Below, one piece after another: positions 743 through 8,286 of a stretch of DNA of 64,000 bases (position 1 is the stretch's first letter; every line of letters begins with the position of its first letter). A program made the position numbers and the translations under genes. Location: contig NZ_CP132542.1 of the NCBI RefSeq assembly GCF_030845175.1, positions 1,833,501 to 1,897,500 of the forward strand, read 5' to 3'. Source of the DNA: Coralliovum pocilloporae (GTDB lineage Bacteria > Pseudomonadota > Alphaproteobacteria > Rhizobiales > Cohaesibacteraceae). The notes beneath the pieces are model-generated. The model saw only the letters and a program-made list of their open reading frames with translations, did no database searches and was not told the DNA's origin.

Positions 743-1966
743 ATGGCCCGGGCTTTTCTCATGGTTATGGATTCATTTGGCATCGGCGGTGCGCCGGATG
801 CGGCGGCATTTGGCGATGAGGGCGCTGATACATTCGGCCACATTGCTGAGGCCTGTGCAGAAGGGCGGGCGGATGTGCCGGGCCTGCGTCATGGCCCATT
901 GCTCCTCCCCAATCTGCAAAGGCTTGGCCTTTTGGAGGCAGCCAGGAAGGTTGCCGGGAAGACTGTTGCCTCTCTGGGGTTTGAAGGGGAGATCACAGGC
1001 TTCTGGGGTGCTGCTCATGAAATCTCGAACGGCAAAGACACACCATCGGGCCACTGGGAACTTGCAGGCGTGCCGGTCACGTTTGACTGGGGCTATTTCC
1101 CTGATACGCGCCCTTCGTTCCCGGAGGACTTCACCCGAGCCTTTATTCGTGAGGCGAGATTGCCGGGGATCCTGGGAGATTGCCATGCATCCGGGACGGT
1201 GATCATTGATGAATTCGGTGAAGAACACGTCCGCAGCGGTAAACCCATCTGTTATACAAGTGCGGATTCCGTTCTCCAGATTGCTGCTCATGAGGAGCAT
1301 TTCGGGCTTGAGAGGCTTTATGATATCTGCGCCATCGCCCGTGAAATGCTCTACGACCTGAACATTGGCCGGGTGATCGCAAGGCCCTTTGTGGGAGAAG
1401 ACAGGGCCAGTTTCGAACGGACGGCCAACCGGCGGGATTTCTCCGTATTGCCACCTGCTCCCACATTGCTGGACCGGGCAAAGGCGGCTGGTCGGTCTGT
1501 TCATGCGGTCGGCAAGTTGAATGATATCTTTGCAGGCCAGGGCGTGACAGATGTTCACAAGGCTGCGGGGACAGACGCGCTTTTTGACCTGACCCTGTCG
1601 CTTGTAGACACAGCCCGGGATGGTGATCTGGTTTTCGTGAACTTTGTCGATTTTGACACGCTCTATGGACACCGTCGGGATATTCCCGGTTATGCCGCTG
1701 CTCTTGAGGCATTTGACGCGCGGCTGCCGGAGCTGGAAGCCCGCCTGCGGCCCGGTGACCTTGCGGTTCTGACTGCAGACCATGGCTGTGATCCGAGCTG
1801 GCATGGAACAGAACACACGCGGGAGCAGGTTCCGTTTCTGGCGTTTGGGCCTGGTCTTGAAGCTGGAGAAGCCCGTGATTCCATGACTTTCTCGGATATA
1901 GGCGCCAGTGTTGCCCATCATCTGGATATTGATCAGGGGCCAGTGGGGAGGAGTGTCTGGATATGA
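743..1966 (+). CDS. deoB: Phosphopentomutase
   Basis: From ATG 743 this gives 407 residues, the size usual for DeoB; a GTG at 734 in the same frame is a less likely start. It is a metal-dependent alkaline-phosphatase-superfamily mutase that interconverts (deoxy)ribose-1-phosphate and -5-phosphate. Visible motifs are the N-terminal metal-binding [16 protein letters not shown] around the phospho-accepting Thr, [14 protein letters not shown], and [18 protein letters not shown] near the C terminus. It takes the sugar phosphate released by DeoA into the pentose phosphate and glycolytic pools. Its stop overlaps the next start (ATGA), so the downstream gene is likely translationally coupled. Confidence 0.95.
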
Positions 1967-2841
1967 ATGCGAGACGGTTTCAGGCAACCGAAGACGGTCA
2001 TCTGACGGGCGATATGCAGCAGGCCTATGAGGATGACGGGTTTCTTGTTCTGGAAGGCTTTGTCACCCCTGAAGCATGCGACCGTTTAAGGGCGCGCATG
2101 GATCAGTTGATTGACGGGTTTGATCCACAATCCGTGGCAACCGTCTTCTCAGCCCGGGATCAGGGGCATGGCCAGGACACCTATTTCCGGGACTCCGGCG
2201 ACAAGATACGGTTCTTCTTTGAAGAGGAAGCGTTTGATGCCGATGGTCAACTGACCAAGGACAAGCATCTGGCGCTGAACAAGGTTGGCCACGCCCTGCA
2301 TGATCTAGACCCGGTTTTCGAGGCGTTTTCGCATACGGACAAGCTGGCTTGTCTGGCCAGAGATCTGGGGCTGGCCCAGCCTCACCTGATGCAGTCCATG
2401 TATATCTTCAAGCAGCCGCATATTGGCGGAGAGGTGAATTGCCATCAGGATTCGAGTTTCCTTCATACGGAACCGCTTTCCTGTACCGGCTTCTGGTTTG
2501 CCCTTGAGGACGCGGATTCAGGCAATGGTGGTTTGTATGGCGTTCCGGGCGGGCACAGGGAAGCCCTGCGGCAGCGTTATCATTATGCCGGTGATGACCT
2601 TGTGATGGACACGCTTGATGAAACCCCGCATGCCCCGGACCATAAGCATGTAGCACTGGATGCGCCGAAAGGAAGTCTTGTTGTTCTGCATGGTTCAGTG
2701 CCTCACAGATCAGCACCAAACCGGTCTGACCGGTCTCGTCATGCCTATGCGATCCACGCGGTCGATGGACTGGCGCACTGGTCTGATGACAACTGGCTGA
2801 GACGGGACAACGCGATGCCACGTCGGGGGTTTGCACTCTGA
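1963..2841 (+). CDS. Phytanoyl-CoA dioxygenase (PhyH) family protein
   Basis: A 292-residue Fe(II)/2-oxoglutarate-type dioxygenase of the PhyH family. The metal-binding HxD is seen at H161-Q-D163 and the distal His at about H248 (VPHRSAPN), followed by Arg residues that could hold 2-oxoglutarate. It overlaps deoB by 4 bases (ATGA) and add by 1 base (TGATG), so it is made together with nucleoside-salvage enzymes. The substrate cannot be told from sequence. Family members hydroxylate fatty acyl-CoAs, ectoine and many small molecules. The setting suggests a nucleoside, base or related metabolite, but that is inference. No signal peptide is seen, so it is cytosolic. Confidence 0.85.
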
Positions 2842-3815
2842 TGCAGTCGGGCACTCTGCCGAAAGTCGAGCTTCATTGTCATCTGGAAGGAACCATTACG
2901 CCAGACTTTGCCTTGAAGCTGGCGGAGAAGCGAGGCGTTGATCTCAAAGCACTCGGGAACCGGGACGGGACGTATAGCTGGCATGATTTCACAAGCTTTC
3001 TGAAAGCCTATGACAAGGTCAGTGACCTTCTGAACAGGCCGCAGGACTATTACGATCTGACCCTTGATCACCTCACCCGTGCAGCTGGGCAAGGGGTGAT
3101 CTACACGGAATTTTTTCTCTCTGCTGATCACGGTCGCCGTATCAATATCGACTATGCAGACATGGTGGAGGCCATTGACGAGGCCTGCCGTCATGCGGAA
3201 GAGGCGTCTGGCATCATCTGTCGTCTGATATCCACCTGTGTCCGGCATCTTGGGCCGGATGCCGCGCTTGATGTGGCGCGGGAGACCTGCGCCAGAAGCC
3301 ATCCAAGGGTCACAGGATTCGGTATGGGAGGCGATGAGCGTTGTCATCACCCATCCGAATTTACACCGGCTTTTGCAATGGCCCATGAAGCCGGCCTTGG
3401 CTGTACCGTTCATGCCGGAGAATTCGGTGGACCTGAGAGCGTGTCCTCCGCTCTGGATTGTCTGCCGGTAACCCGTATCGGGCACGGAGTGCGGGCCGCG
3501 GAGAGCCCGGATCTGGTCAAACGTCTCGTAGACGAACAGATTGTTCTTGAAGTCTGCCCGGGGTCAAATATCGCGCTGGGGCTCTATGAAAGCCTGGCCG
3601 CCCACCCCTTGCCCGCACTGCTGGCAGCAGGTGTTGCCATAACGGTTTCCTCTGATGACCCGCCTTTCTTTCATACGGATATGCAGGCCGAATATGAGAC
3701 GCTCGAAACAGTATTCGGGCTGTCTCACAGCCAGATCAACGATCTCAACTGTACCGGGCTTCAGGCGGCTTTTGTCGATGAAGACACAAGAAAGAGCCTG
3801 ATTAATCGTCTATAA
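2841..3815 (+). CDS. add: Adenosine deaminase family protein
   Basis: 324 residues with the signatures of the adenosine/adenine deaminase family: the zinc-binding HCH near the N terminus (H12, H14 in VELHCHLEG), HAGE (H191, E194), RIGHG, and SSDDPPFF carrying the metal-binding Asp. The protein hydrolyses the exocyclic amine of adenosine, giving inosine and ammonia. Adenine deaminases of the same fold cannot be excluded by eye. It follows the PhyH-like gene with a one-base overlap and is the last gene of the tightly coupled deo block. A gap of 123 bases separates it from the URC1-like gene. Confidence 0.88.
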   Translation: MQSGTLPKVELHCHLEGTITPDFALKLAEKRGVDLKALGNRDGTYSWHDFTSFLKAYDKVSDLLNRPQDYYDLTLDHLTRAAGQGVIYTEFFLSADHGRRINIDYADMVEAIDEACRHAEEASGIICRLISTCVRHLGPDAALDVARETCARSHPRVTGFGMGGDERCHHPSEFTPAFAMAHEAGLGCTVHAGEFGGPESVSSALDCLPVTRIGHGVRAAESPDLVKRLVDEQIVLEVCPGSNIALGLYESLAAHPLPALLAAGVAITVSSDDPPFFHTDMQAEYETLETVFGLSHSQINDLNCTGLQAAFVDEDTRKSLINRL

Positions 3816-3938: not shown

Positions 3939-5204
3939 ATGCATGGCAAGGATAACAAACCCACGCGACATATCCGGCTGACCTCCCATACGGGCAGTGC
4001 CGGTGATGTCATCCATCCGATTGACTGGGGCGCAGCCAGCGCCGGAGAGCGTGGCCCCGTGGTCGCCACCGTCACAAATCAGCAGGATCGCAACGCCATT
4101 GGCGCGCACGGGGGCTCTTACTCCCTTTACAGAGCGCTTGCTGTGTCATCCGGTGCACTCAATCCGGTACAGAGGCCGGACTACACCAATACCCGGCCTG
4201 TGGTGGATATTGGGCCTTATCCGCAATGGTTCGATCCGGACAAGATCGTTTCGCTCGACCCGTTCGGTCATCAGGTGATGGATTGTTTCGCAGATGAAAT
4301 CGCCGCAGGGCACGATATCAGGCCGACAATTGCGGTAACGCGTGCGCGGATCTCCATCATTGAACTGGACGAAGCCATTGCTTCCGGGCGGATCAGGGTG
4401 GATGGTGATATTGTCGGAGAAGCCGGAGATGTTTCGGTGATCAAGGCGGCAGTGGACCCGGTCTGGCACCTGCCGGGCATTGCCCGTCGCTTTGATGTGA
4501 CAGAAGATGAGTTGCGCCGCACTCTGTTTGAGCAGACCGGTGGCATGTTCCCCGAACTTGTGACACGCCCGGACCTGGATGTCTTTCTGCCTCCGATTGG
4601 CGGCATCACGCTCTATATTTTCGGCGACCCGGCGGCCCTTTCAGATCCGGGAAAGAGCCTGACCTGTCGGGTTCATGATGAATGTAACGGTTCCGATGTC
4701 TTTGGGTCCGATATCTGCACCTGCCGCCCCTATCTGATTCACGGTATTGAGGAATGCGTGAAAGAGGCTCAAGCGGGCGGTGTCGGGCTGATTGTCTATA
4801 ATCGCAAGGAAGGGCGGGCGCTCGGAGAAGTGACTAAGTTTCTGGTCTACAATGCCCGCAAGCGCCAGGAAGGTGGAGATAGTGCCGCCACCTATTTTGC
4901 CCGCACGGAATGTGTGGCAGGCGTACAGGATGCCCGTTTTCAGGAATTGATGCCGGATGTTCTGCACTGGCTTGGTATCACACGCATTGATCGCTTTATC
5001 TCAATGAGCGACATGAAATATGATGCGGTCACTGGATCGGGGATTGAAATCGTCGAGCGGGTGGCAATCCCGGATGATATGGTGCCTATGGATGCACAGG
5101 TAGAACTGGAAGCCAAGAAAGCAGCGGGGTATTATGCGCCTGACGGAACACCGGATGAAACAGATCTGGAGTCAACCGTCGGCCGGTCTCTTGAGGAGTT
5201 CTGA
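3939..5204 (+). CDS. GTP cyclohydrolase II-like uracil-catabolism protein (URC1 type)
   Basis: 421 residues: an N-terminal extension of about 200 residues not found in ordinary RibA, then a GTP cyclohydrolase II-like domain. The zinc triad is intact as C249-x10-C260-x-C262 (HDEC...DICTC). The usual catalytic stretch RQEGRGIGL is changed to RKEGRALGE, which argues against plain riboflavin synthesis. Its partner 6 bases downstream is DUF1688 (URC4). Together with upp at 7657 this is the gene set of the URC uracil-degradation pathway first described in the yeast Lachancea kluyveri, where URC1 is a GTP cyclohydrolase II homologue. The likely substrate is a uracil-derived nucleotide; the exact reaction is not known from sequence. 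Confidence 0.88.
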   Translation: MHGKDNKPTRHIRLTSHTGSAGDVIHPIDWGAASAGERGPVVATVTNQQDRNAIGAHGGSYSLYRALAVSSGALNPVQRPDYTNTRPVVDIGPYPQWFDPDKIVSLDPFGHQVMDCFADEIAAGHDIRPTIAVTRARISIIELDEAIASGRIRVDGDIVGEAGDVSVIKAAVDPVWHLPGIARRFDVTEDELRRTLFEQTGGMFPELVTRPDLDVFLPPIGGITLYIFGDPAALSDPGKSLTCRVHDECNGSDVFGSDICTCRPYLIHGIEECVKEAQAGGVGLIVYNRKEGRALGEVTKFLVYNARKRQEGGDSAATYFARTECVAGVQDARFQELMPDVLHWLGITRIDRFISMSDMKYDAVTGSGIEIVERVAIPDDMVPMDAQVELEAKKAAGYYAPDGTPDETDLESTVGRSLEEF

Positions 5205-5209
5205 CCCCT

Positions 5210-6448
5210 ATGACGGAACTTGAAACGCTGTCTGCACGTCAGTTGCTGTCCGCTACGGCAGTCAGGGAACGTGCACATGGGCTTTTGGCACTGGGCGTGC
5301 TGAACCAGCTTGACCACTTCAGTGTGGATATGGATGCACTGAGCGAAGTGGCAGACTTCGTGCTGGATGTGACACGGGACACTTACCCGGACGGACGGAT
5401 ACCGTTTCATGCCCGTTGGCGGCATTTTGATGATCCGATCACTGATGCCCTGCCAAATCTCATTCCTGAACTGACCAATGATGAAGCAAAGGCTGCGGCA
5501 CGGCTGGCGGTTGATCTGACATTCGTCTCTGTCCTGCTTGATGCTGGTGCCGGGCCGGACTGGTCTTATGAGGATGACAATACAGAACAGGTCTATACCC
5601 GCTCTGAAGGCCTGGCCCAGGCCAGTCTACGCATGTTCCGCTCGGGGTTCTTTTCAAGCGATCCGCTGGATCCGATGCGAGTGGACGCACAGGCTCTTGC
5701 AACGCTCACCCTTGATGAGCTGGAACGCGGGTTCAAGGTCAGCCCGTCAAACCCGCTTGTGGGGCTTGAGGGCCGTTTGAGTCTGCTGCAGAAACTGGGC
5801 GGTGCGCTGGTCGGTAATCCGGATGTCTATGAGACCGAAGATGGCCTGCGTCCTGGCGGCCTGGTGGACCATTTCACAATCCGTGCCGAGGAAGGGCTGG
5901 TGACCGGAGAGGATATTCTCAAGACGCTGCTTGAATCCCTCGCGTCTATCTGGCCAAGCCGCTATGCCATTGGCGGTTATCCGCTGGGGGATACCTGGCA
6001 GCATCGCAAGGTGACAGTGCCGGACCCGACCAACAGCTTCATTCCGTTCCACAAGCTCTCCCAGTGGCTGACCTATTCACTGGTTGAGCCGCTGCAGTGG
6101 GGGCGTGTGCCGGTTCATGGGCTGGACACACTTACGGGCCTGGCCGAATACCGCAATGGCGGGCTCTTTATCGATCTGGGCGTGCTGACGCCAAAAGACG
6201 CCACGGCGATGGAGCGGTCGCACAGCGCTGACAGTGAGCTGATTGTTGAGTGGCGGGCCCTGACCATCGCATTGCTCGACAAGCTTGCTGATGAGCTGCG
6301 TAATCGGACGGGGGGAGATCCTGAGACCCTGCCGCTGGCGCGTATTCTCCAGGGTGGCACATGGAATGCCGGTCGCAAGATTGCCAAAGCCCGGAGAGAG
6401 GACGGAACACCGCCGCTCAAAATTGAAAGCGACGGGACCGTTTTCTGA
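5210..6448 (+). CDS. DUF1688 family protein (URC4 type, uracil catabolism)
   Basis: 412 residues, matching the DUF1688/URC4 family in its opening (TELETLSARQLLSATAVRER) and in conserved stretches such as YPDGRIPFHARWRHF and YPLGDTWQHR. No known catalytic motif, signal peptide or membrane segment is evident. It starts 6 bases after the URC1-like gene and is surely co-transcribed. In the URC pathway URC4 is needed for growth on uracil as nitrogen source, but its reaction is unsettled. Pairing with URC1 and with a nearby uracil phosphoribosyltransferase supports the same role here. Confidence 0.87.
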   Translation: MTELETLSARQLLSATAVRERAHGLLALGVLNQLDHFSVDMDALSEVADFVLDVTRDTYPDGRIPFHARWRHFDDPITDALPNLIPELTNDEAKAAARLAVDLTFVSVLLDAGAGPDWSYEDDNTEQVYTRSEGLAQASLRMFRSGFFSSDPLDPMRVDAQALATLTLDELERGFKVSPSNPLVGLEGRLSLLQKLGGALVGNPDVYETEDGLRPGGLVDHFTIRAEEGLVTGEDILKTLLESLASIWPSRYAIGGYPLGDTWQHRKVTVPDPTNSFIPFHKLSQWLTYSLVEPLQWGRVPVHGLDTLTGLAEYRNGGLFIDLGVLTPKDATAMERSHSADSELIVEWRALTIALLDKLADELRNRTGGDPETLPLARILQGGTWNAGRKIAKARREDGTPPLKIESDGTVF

Positions 6449-6502
6449 GTTCCGGGCCATAGTCTGCCAGAACAGAATGAACGACATTAATGGGTCTTGA
6501 CC

Positions 6503-6862
6503 CTAGCCTTCTGTTTTAAAGGCCAGCGTCGCCTCCATGATCGGATGATAGCGACAATAATAGTCAAGAACCATGTCTTCGGTCACTGTGACAGTCGCTG
6601 ACTGATCCTTGTCGATCTGCCCTGTATCCCAGGAATGATCGCGCGCGGTTGCCGTATGCGGGGCGATGTCGAGGTTGGTCCAGGTGATCCGGTCACCAGG
6701 GCGTACGGTCAGATGCGCCGGTTCAAAGACAAAGCCTGTGATCGTGACCATGTGGTGGACTGGATTTTCAGCGGTGTAGCCCATTGTTGCTCGGGCTGGC
6801 AAAGAAAGACCCGCGGCGAAGAGGCTCGCCGCGGTTCCTGCAAGAAGGTCTCGTCGTTTCAT
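6503..6862 (-). CDS. Tat-exported cupredoxin (pseudoazurin/amicyanin-like)
   Basis: 119 residues. The N terminus MKRRDLLAGTAASLFAAG looks like a twin-arginine signal. The mature part is one plastocyanin-type domain. The four type-1 copper ligands are all present: H69 (IAPHT), then C103, H106 and M109 in YYCRYHPIM. It should be a small periplasmic blue-copper electron carrier, although some such domains bind copper only for delivery or stress. It lies 5 bases downstream of the DUF4142 gene on the same strand and convergent to the URC4-like gene. No redox partner gene is adjacent. Confidence 0.88.
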   Translation of the reverse strand: MKRRDLLAGTAASLFAAGLSLPARATMGYTAENPVHHMVTITGFVFEPAHLTVRPGDRITWTNLDIAPHTATARDHSWDTGQIDKDQSATVTVTEDMVLDYYCRYHPIMEATLAFKTEG

Positions 6863-6867
6863 AATGA

Positions 6868-7401
6868 TCAGCCGCCGTTGACAGCCTTGACCATCATTTC
6901 AGCGTGATGCTCATGACCCTTGAAGATGTTCAGGCCAGCCTTGAACAGTTCTTTCACTTCAGGATTGTCAATATTCGGGATGAAGGTCTTCTCCACAAGC
7001 TCATTGACGGCCTTGTGGTAAGCCAGCTCGTTTTCGGCGTAGCGCTTATCAAAGGCAGCGCCTTCGAGTGCGCTCATTTCGCGGACCAACTGGTCAGCAC
7101 CTTCATTCAGGGACTGGCTGAGGAAGTTGTCCTGCGGCTGGGCTTTGAGTTTCTTGAGAAGGGCCAGAGCCTGGTCGTTGACGGCTTCATGATCCCGGAT
7201 CATGGTTTTGGCAAACTCGCGAACAGCCGGGTTGCTGGACTTGGCAAGCGCCAGGTGAGCATAGCGGATGTCGATATTGTCTGCTGTATAGGCCACGTGG
7301 GCGATCTGCAGATCGTTCAGATCAGCCGGGGATTCCGCCTGCGCGGCAGTCGCAAGCATAAAGGCGGTGGAAATAGCGGCAAGCATTGTTTTAATGGACA
7401 T
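6868..7401 (-). CDS. DUF4142 exported protein
   Basis: 177 residues from the ATG at 7401, preceded by AGGGAG; a longer frame begins at 7431 but leaves the signal peptide internal. A Sec signal peptide (MSIKTMLAAISTAFMLATAAQA) leads into a helical DUF4142 domain with ferritin-like spacing of His, Glu and Asp residues (IRDHEAVN, AYHKAVNE, GHEHHAEMM). Members are often induced by stress or sit with copper proteins; biochemical function is not established. It shares an operon with the cupredoxin downstream and is divergent from upp, with a 255-base shared promoter region. Confidence 0.82.
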   Translation of the reverse strand: MSIKTMLAAISTAFMLATAAQAESPADLNDLQIAHVAYTADNIDIRYAHLALAKSSNPAVREFAKTMIRDHEAVNDQALALLKKLKAQPQDNFLSQSLNEGADQLVREMSALEGAAFDKRYAENELAYHKAVNELVEKTFIPNIDNPEVKELFKAGLNIFKGHEHHAEMMVKAVNGG

Positions 7402-7656
7402 TTTAGGCTCCCTTGAAGACGTGAAAAGCATCCCTCCTGATGCCTGCGGTCTAGGTAATCATCAGGGCCCCAAGAGAAATAGACCTGATATGCCGGGTTT
7501 TTTGACCAATCGTACGGAAGGTTCTGTGGGTTGCGTGAGAGAAGCCCTATTATCGCATTCGTATTTGTCTGCGGTTGCGGTAGATTGCCAGTAAAGCGAT
7601 TCATATAAAGCTCCGCATGAATCTGCGGAGGCAATGAGGAAGAAAGGACCATCGTC

Positions 7657-8286
7657 ATGGATGGCGTAACCGTCATTGATCATCCGCTTGTCCAGCACAA
7701 GCTGACCATCATGCGCAAGAAAGAGACATCGACCGCGAGCTTCAGGAGGCTGCTGCAGGAGATCTCAACATTGCTCTGCTATGAGGTGACGCGTGATCTG
7801 GAACTGACGACGGTTATGATAGACACGCCGCTTGAAGAGATGGAAGCGCCGACGCTTGCAGGCAAGAAGCTGGTTTTTGCCTCTGTTCTCAGGGCGGGCA
7901 ATGGCCTTCTGGAAGGGATGCTGGATCTGGTTCCATCTGCTCGCGTGGCGCATGTGGGGCTGTACCGGGATCCCAAGACGCTTGTCGCCGTTGAATATTA
8001 CTTCAAGGCACCGGAAGATATTTCCGACCGGCTGGTTGTTGTGGTGGACCCGATGCTGGCTACGGCCAATTCGGCAATCGCCGCCATCGACCGCCTGAAG
8101 GAGCGCGGTGCTCACAATCTGCGCTTTGTCAGCCTGCTGGCTGCTCCGGAAGGAATCGCGAATTTCAGGGAACATCACCCGGATGTGCCGATCTTCACCG
8201 CCTCCATTGACCAGCGTCTCAATGAGAAGGGCTATATCATGCCTGGCCTGGGAGATGCCGGCGATCGCATGTACGGCACTAAATGA
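7657..8286 (+). CDS. upp: Uracil phosphoribosyltransferase
   Basis: 209 residues, the usual length. It opens with [20 protein letters not shown]. The PRPP-binding loop reads [11 protein letters not shown] and the C terminus reads [14 protein letters not shown] with the uracil-contacting GLGDAGDR. The enzyme makes UMP from uracil and PRPP. In the URC pathway the equivalent enzyme (URC6) supplies the first step, so this gene links nucleoside salvage with the URC1/URC4-like genes upstream, although two divergent genes lie between. A GAGGAAGAAAGGA stretch before the ATG serves as ribosome-binding site. Confidence 0.95.

Follow-up and report, generated by a model that had tools for sequence, protein, structure and literature searches.

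Why would an Fe(II)/2-oxoglutarate (2OG) oxygenase of the PhyH family be encoded between a phosphopentomutase and an adenosine deaminase, in the midst of a bacterial nucleoside-degradation cluster? We addressed this question in a window of 64,000 nucleotides (positions 1833501–1897500 of a single-contig, 3.918-Mb genome), and consider it highly probable that the oxygenase is a bacterial PHYHD1, predicted to demethylate free 2'-O-methyl ribonucleosides inside a nucleoside-degradation operon. 2'-O-methylation of RNA occurs in all domains of life, and the catabolism of methylated nucleosides was largely unexplored before the PHYHD1 assignment in 2025 (PMC12709175). Human PHYHD1, as reported in December 2025, demethylates free 2'-O-methyl nucleosides, as do the metagenomic bacterial enzyme FJS and animal, fungal, plant, viral and other bacterial relatives; the FJS reaction yields formaldehyde and requires 2-oxoglutarate (PMC12709175). 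Neither FJS nor human PHYHD1 acted on the nucleotides tried, nor did FJS act on the methylated RNAs tried; in zebrafish, knocking out phyhd1 makes free 2'-O-methyl nucleosides accumulate and leaves RNA methylation unchanged (PMC12709175).

The oxygenase gene and its cluster

The gene at 1963–2841 on the plus strand is an intact open reading frame of 292 amino acids with an ATG start and a TGA stop, and its product spans the whole of the PhyH model PF05721 (5.2e-45), which bears out the PhyH-type dioxygenase read there in an earlier note on this DNA. We designate it a PHYHD1-type Fe(II)/2OG oxygenase and predicted 2'-O-methyl-nucleoside demethylase on the basis of PF05721, the PHYHD1 match, an AlphaFold2 (AF2) model and the pocket residues. 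It overlaps deoB by 4 bp (ATGA) and add by 1 bp (TGATG), just as that note had described. The further claim that this is the tightest coupling in the region holds within the window, but just upstream of it the junctions between ABC ATPase and permease 1 and between deoC and deoA are 4-bp overlaps too.

All the catabolic genes around it are on the plus strand. The C-terminal part of deoA (thymidine phosphorylase) occupies 2–718; its best NCBIfam matches, TIGR02643 and PRK05820, are both under the cut-off because the window edge cuts the gene, whose start lies upstream, and the complete deoA is a 444-aa open reading frame in a 20-kb stretch extending upstream of the window (L003). It is followed by deoB (phosphopentomutase, 734–1966; PRK05362, 530 bits against a cut-off of 256), the oxygenase gene, and add (adenosine deaminase, 2841–3815; NF006848, 429 bits against 426). 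The upstream stretch, from which the first part of the cluster was read, contains Pfam-confirmed genes for a pair of BMP-type binding proteins, a regulator carrying a sugar-binding domain, an ABC ATPase, two permeases, a cytidine deaminase (cdd) and a protein that joins PNP and DeoC domains, with deoA next. The cluster as a whole thus reads BMP-type binding proteins, regulator, ABC transporter, cdd, PNP-deoC, deoA, deoB, PHYH, add, URC1, URC4, upp. Strand, spacing and conservation predict that the genes form an operon, and from its place and kind the ABC transporter would carry nucleosides.

PNP and deoC are here a single 519-aa open reading frame with both Pfam domains (G000:C1:1831328-1832887; L003 8828-10387). 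Such a fusion occurs only at the window's locus among 43 loci with both genes close together, and its product is possibly a bifunctional nucleoside phosphorylase/deoxyribose-phosphate aldolase.

Genes of uracil catabolism (3939–8286) stand directly after the deo/add genes. They comprise a GTP cyclohydrolase II homologue (3939–5204; NF005536, 745 bits), which we take to be of the URC1 kind, a DUF1688 protein (5210–6448; PF07958, 3.5e-142), presumably URC4, and upp (uracil phosphoribosyltransferase, 7657–8286; TIGR01091, 266.8 bits against a cut-off of 208). Family scans in the window also identified a phosphohexomutase gene and, on the opposite strand between URC4 and upp, cupredoxin and DUF4142 genes.

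Kinship with PHYHD1 in sequence, fold and pocket

Among solved structures, the closest to the window protein is human PHYHD1 (phmmer 1.6e-66 over residues 18–286), and the next sequence match in the PDB is EvdO2, at 1.2e-9. The AF2 model, built from 46 aligned sequences (the window protein and compared loci), has a mean pLDDT of 91.9 and superposes on PHYHD1 (2opw/3obz) with Z 36.1 and an r.m.s.d. of 2.0–2.2 Å over 272–273 residues at 42% identity. The next structure entry scores Z 24.0, so that the overall fold is nearer to PHYHD1 than to other 2OG oxygenases, and Foldseek gave 2.6e-31 for PHYHD1 versus 1.7e-13 for the next different protein. PHYHD1 has a specific extra helix near the cavity opening, alpha4 (human Q56–L71; PMC12709175). 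In roughly this region, which is modelled at lower confidence, the window protein has short helices at 67–71 and 73–76 (block mean pLDDT 63 and 86).

Two other activities of the family were rejected on these grounds. Human phytanoyl-CoA dioxygenase (PHYH, 2a1x) is distant from the window protein (9.4e-8 and Z 22.6, where PHYHD1 has 1.6e-66 and Z 36.1), and it is inactive on 2'-O-methyl nucleosides (PMC12709175). Ectoine activity was dismissed because of the fold distance and because the protein scores 26.5 bits against the ectoine hydroxylase model TIGR02408, under a family cut-off of 336.5.

The metal motif H161-Q-D163...H248, which had been said to look intact, is confirmed by alignment: H161, D163 and H248 correspond to human H156, D158 and H246, and the 2OG-binding arginine R257 aligns with R259. 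Docking in PHYHD1 places the ribose between K102, H105, Q139 and W277 and stacks the base on F161, contacts that rest on docking and not on a substrate complex (PMC12709175). The counterparts in the window protein are K107, H110, Q144, W278 and F166, whereas S154, a purine contact in the docking, is replaced by N159 at a position that varies across relatives. Among 147 relatives (the best 80 loci of genome_contigs plus 67 found in the genome surveys, with some genomes entering twice), K107, Q144, H161, D163 and R259 never vary, H110, H248 and W278 are each retained in 146, and position 166 is Phe in 122, Tyr in 24 and Trp in 1. The catalytic and ribose-contact residues are kept equally in the 72 rows linked to nucleoside genes and the 75 unlinked ones, linkage in this comparison also counting transporter and nucleotidase genes; there is therefore no sign in these residues that the substrate differs between the two groups.

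This retention of the PHYHD1 pocket bears on the suggestion that the enzyme hydroxylates a base or base-modified nucleoside, in a step resembling that of thymine-7-hydroxylase, ahead of the URC or deo enzymes. The adjoining thymidine phosphorylase and uracil-catabolism genes are in keeping with such a step, but we find it scarcely credible, as no thymine hydroxylase is named among the 14 phmmer matches in the PDB at E 0.1 (judged by molecule names) and, of 255 loci compared, none but the window's own (L001, L003) has URC1. It follows that the deo/add linkage is independent of the URC genes, and a role in the URC uracil pathway was rejected on the absence of URC1 from the other loci; URC4 is present at the window's locus and in one further genome of the same set (G302; L085, L146). 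A fungal thymine/deoxynucleoside hydroxylase found no support among the PDB sequence matches either, and is kept as a low-ranking rival.

Linkage to nucleoside-catabolism genes

The PHYHD1-type gene has a patchy occurrence. At E 1e-40, and with the window's own genome counted, it was matched in 18 of 297 genomes of the order sample, 45 of 387 of the class sample and 10 of 397 of the phylum sample; in the window's own family it was matched in 2 of 20 genomes (E 1e-30), 19 of which have deoB. Three family genomes without PHYH whose neighbourhoods were examined (L213–L215) keep the order cdd-PNP-deoC-deoA-deoB-add-upp. The only other family genome with the gene, G019, has no deoB match and no core gene in the 11 kb examined (L212). 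Patchiness and sister clusters without PHYH together make the gene an optional part of the pathway.

We took as core genes deoA, deoB, deoC, add, PNP, cdd, upp, RihA, NupC, URC1 and URC4, and examined up to ~9.5 kb on each side of all 45 genes of the class sample, an even sampling of the Alphaproteobacteria (own locus L003 and L156–L199, some shortened by contig ends), with neighbours called by a codon-usage gene caller and by tblastn with the proteins of the window's own cluster. A core gene lies within about 10 kb in 27 of the 45, and no more than 1.5 kb away in 23. By comparison, none of 40 other PhyH paralogues of the class, drawn from the matches listed, has a core gene nearby (Fisher p 2.5e-10, kinship ignored); these controls were taken best first, at most two from any genome, leaving aside PHYHD1-type hits and genes starting less than 9.5 kb from a contig start. 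The gene occurs in 24 families of the class sample; the 27 linked genes span 12 of these, one of which has both kinds, and the other 12 families have no linkage.

The deo/add context, whose conservation the earlier note had wanted checked, thus recurs in half of the families with the gene. Whether most relatives lie outside unrelated operons, which the earlier note had made a test of its idea, depends on the sample. In the order sample the loci examined, which cover 17 of the 18 genomes (G171 was left out, as was the second copy of G265), are linked in all 17 cases, and the class majority is linked as given above; linkage was found at 0 of 6 extra phylum-sample loci and at 28 of the best 80 genome_contigs loci, some of which are cut by contig ends and one of which (L070) is linked only by distant genes on the other strand, and G019 is unlinked. 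The order, class, phylum and genome_contigs locus sets overlap in genomes. Outside the class, linkage is rare in what was sampled.

The arrangement of the linked loci is varied. The order deoA-deoB-PHYH-add is found in the window, Stappia and others, and deoA-PHYH-add in Enhydrobacter and in one actinobacterial MAG (L044). Further orders are deoB-PHYH without add, PHYH-add-upp, PHYH ahead of BMP-ABC-cdd-PNP-deoC, and PHYH-deoA-NupC-RihA-ribokinase in two gammaproteobacterial MAGs; some linked loci also have a 5'-nucleotidase or a PNP_UDP_1 family protein as neighbours. In L190 and L191 (genomes of 1.6 and 1.2 Mb) PHYH stands directly before a nucleoside hydrolase gene (PF01156 in L190), which suggests a minimal demethylase-hydrolase pair; the stretch examined holds no other core nucleoside gene in either case. 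A tree of 79 rows, with 41 of them linked and 37 unlinked (L070 counted as linked), requires at least nine changes in linkage, three of them forced by starred branches (quick method). As these changes may be losses or gains, repeated association is better argued from the diversity of gene order. Three Stappiaceae clusters have a gene of the proline-racemase family between deoB and PHYH (L004 8958–9965, L007 and L010).

The remaining 18 of the 45 class-sample genes have no core gene nearby, and the 20 same-strand, short-gap neighbours scanned at these loci revealed no nucleoside theme: they belong to unrelated families, including a histidine kinase, chorismate synthase, regulators, aldehyde dehydrogenases, aminotransferases, a class II aldolase, DUF4269, an M1 peptidase, CutA, a porin and DapF, among others. 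At the Massilia loci a 350-aa neighbour of the PHYHD1-type gene has no Pfam match. Such loci could be taken to mean that the enzyme acts on a lipid acyl-CoA, ectoine or another small molecule and that its linkage is incidental, all the more as PhyH is a very diverse family, with at least 113 of 192 class genomes matching at E 1e-15. We regard this reading as extremely unlikely in view of the contrast in linkage between PHYHD1-type genes and control paralogues, the low ectoine hydroxylase score and the remoteness of human phytanoyl-CoA hydroxylase.

A predicted route for 2'-O-methyl nucleosides and its known counterparts

From orthology and the pocket, the window protein is predicted to oxidise the 2'-O-methyl group, and the gene cluster suggests how the products might flow through the operon. 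2'-O-methyl nucleosides derived from RNA would enter via the ABC transporter, and the PHYHD1-type enzyme would convert them to formaldehyde and plain ribonucleosides, with 2-oxoglutarate giving succinate and CO2. Methylated nucleosides are assumed to resist the phosphorylases of the cluster, so demethylation would open up nucleosides that the other operon enzymes presumably cannot use while they are methylated. Add could then receive the freed adenosine and Cdd the cytidine; PNP would act on purine nucleosides and DeoB on ribose-1-phosphate, Upp and the URC genes would deal with uracil, and DeoA too would be on the route of plain nucleosides. Counting against this reading, sister genomes manage nucleoside degradation through the same cluster although they lack PHYH. 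Because a PHYHD1 relative sits in an operon of nucleoside uptake and degradation, we propose that it probably serves these bacteria in consuming modified RNA fragments.

Fungal pyrimidine deoxynucleoside dioxygenases hydroxylate 2'-deoxynucleosides at C2' (or C1'), and an equivalent activity here would feed deoxynucleosides into ribonucleoside routes. The presence of deoA and deoC in the cluster is compatible with this, the 2' side of the docked ribose faces the iron in PHYHD1, and 2'-deoxynucleosides are absent from Table 1 of the PHYHD1 paper (PMC12709175). We nevertheless consider it very unlikely: the usual deoxynucleoside-degrading enzymes are already in the cluster, the three sister genomes have the same gene order without PHYH, L190 and L191 pair PHYH with a nucleoside hydrolase in the absence of deo genes, and PHYHD1 proteins are known to attack the 2'-O-methyl carbon (PMC12709175). 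We likewise give little credence to the broader notion that 2'-deoxynucleosides are substrates of the deo-linked PHYHD1 enzymes, whether alongside 2'-O-methyl nucleosides or in their place; if true, it would mean a bacterial deoxynucleoside 2'-oxygenase joining deoxynucleoside and ribonucleoside catabolism.

Demethylation of 2'-O-methyl ribonucleosides thus remains the preferred reading. The nucleoside or base hydroxylase that had been suggested is strongly supported as a nucleoside-directed oxygenase, by PHYHD1 kinship and linkage, and made unlikely as a base or deoxyribose hydroxylase; its fungal-type variant, acting on thymine or deoxynucleosides, is disfavoured by the PHYHD1 type of the protein, whose published reaction is 2'-O-methyl ribonucleoside demethylation (PMC12709175). 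As that reaction is on nucleosides, a nucleoside substrate is no longer new for the PhyH family, and the claim to novelty has been overtaken (PMC12709175). What is new here is the genomic and operon evidence for a physiological role, the kind of enzyme being already published (PMC12709175). The main text of that paper uses 'operon' once (pyr operon) and mentions neither adenosine deaminase nor thymidine phosphorylase, and in the open-licence literature searched we found no report of PHYHD1-type genes in bacterial nucleoside operons. The recurring bacterial cluster is independent genetic support for the PHYHD1 assignment, places demethylation in a pathway of uptake and degradation, allows the physiological role to be tested directly in simple bacteria and offers grounds for renaming bacterial genes at present annotated as phytanoyl-CoA dioxygenase.

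Among known enzymes, human PHYHD1 isoform A (2opw, 3obz) shares with the window protein the metal triad, the 2OG arginine, the four ribose contacts and the stacking Phe. The window protein differs in being bacterial, in having N159 for S154 and in lying inside a nucleoside uptake and degradation cluster, and its activity is predicted. FJS belongs to the same broad PhyH family and shares the predicted reaction. In bacterial demethylases the stacking Phe is reported to be Tyr, whereas the window protein has the animal-type Phe (PMC12709175; FJS compared by description only); the ribose contacts are stated to be conserved among non-bacterial demethylases (PMC12709175), and here too the window protein has the animal-type residues. 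Human PHYH is alike in fold and family but, as noted above, distant and inactive on these nucleosides. Another bacterial route into 2'-O-methyl nucleosides is provided by the 2'-O-methyluridine nucleoside hydrolase of the RK9NH type, whose gene adjoins an aldolase gene (PMC12709175); related hydrolases cluster with aldolase and ribokinase genes (PMC6278475). Unlike the oxygenase of the window, this hydrolase cuts the glycosidic bond and the methyl group stays (PMC6278475).
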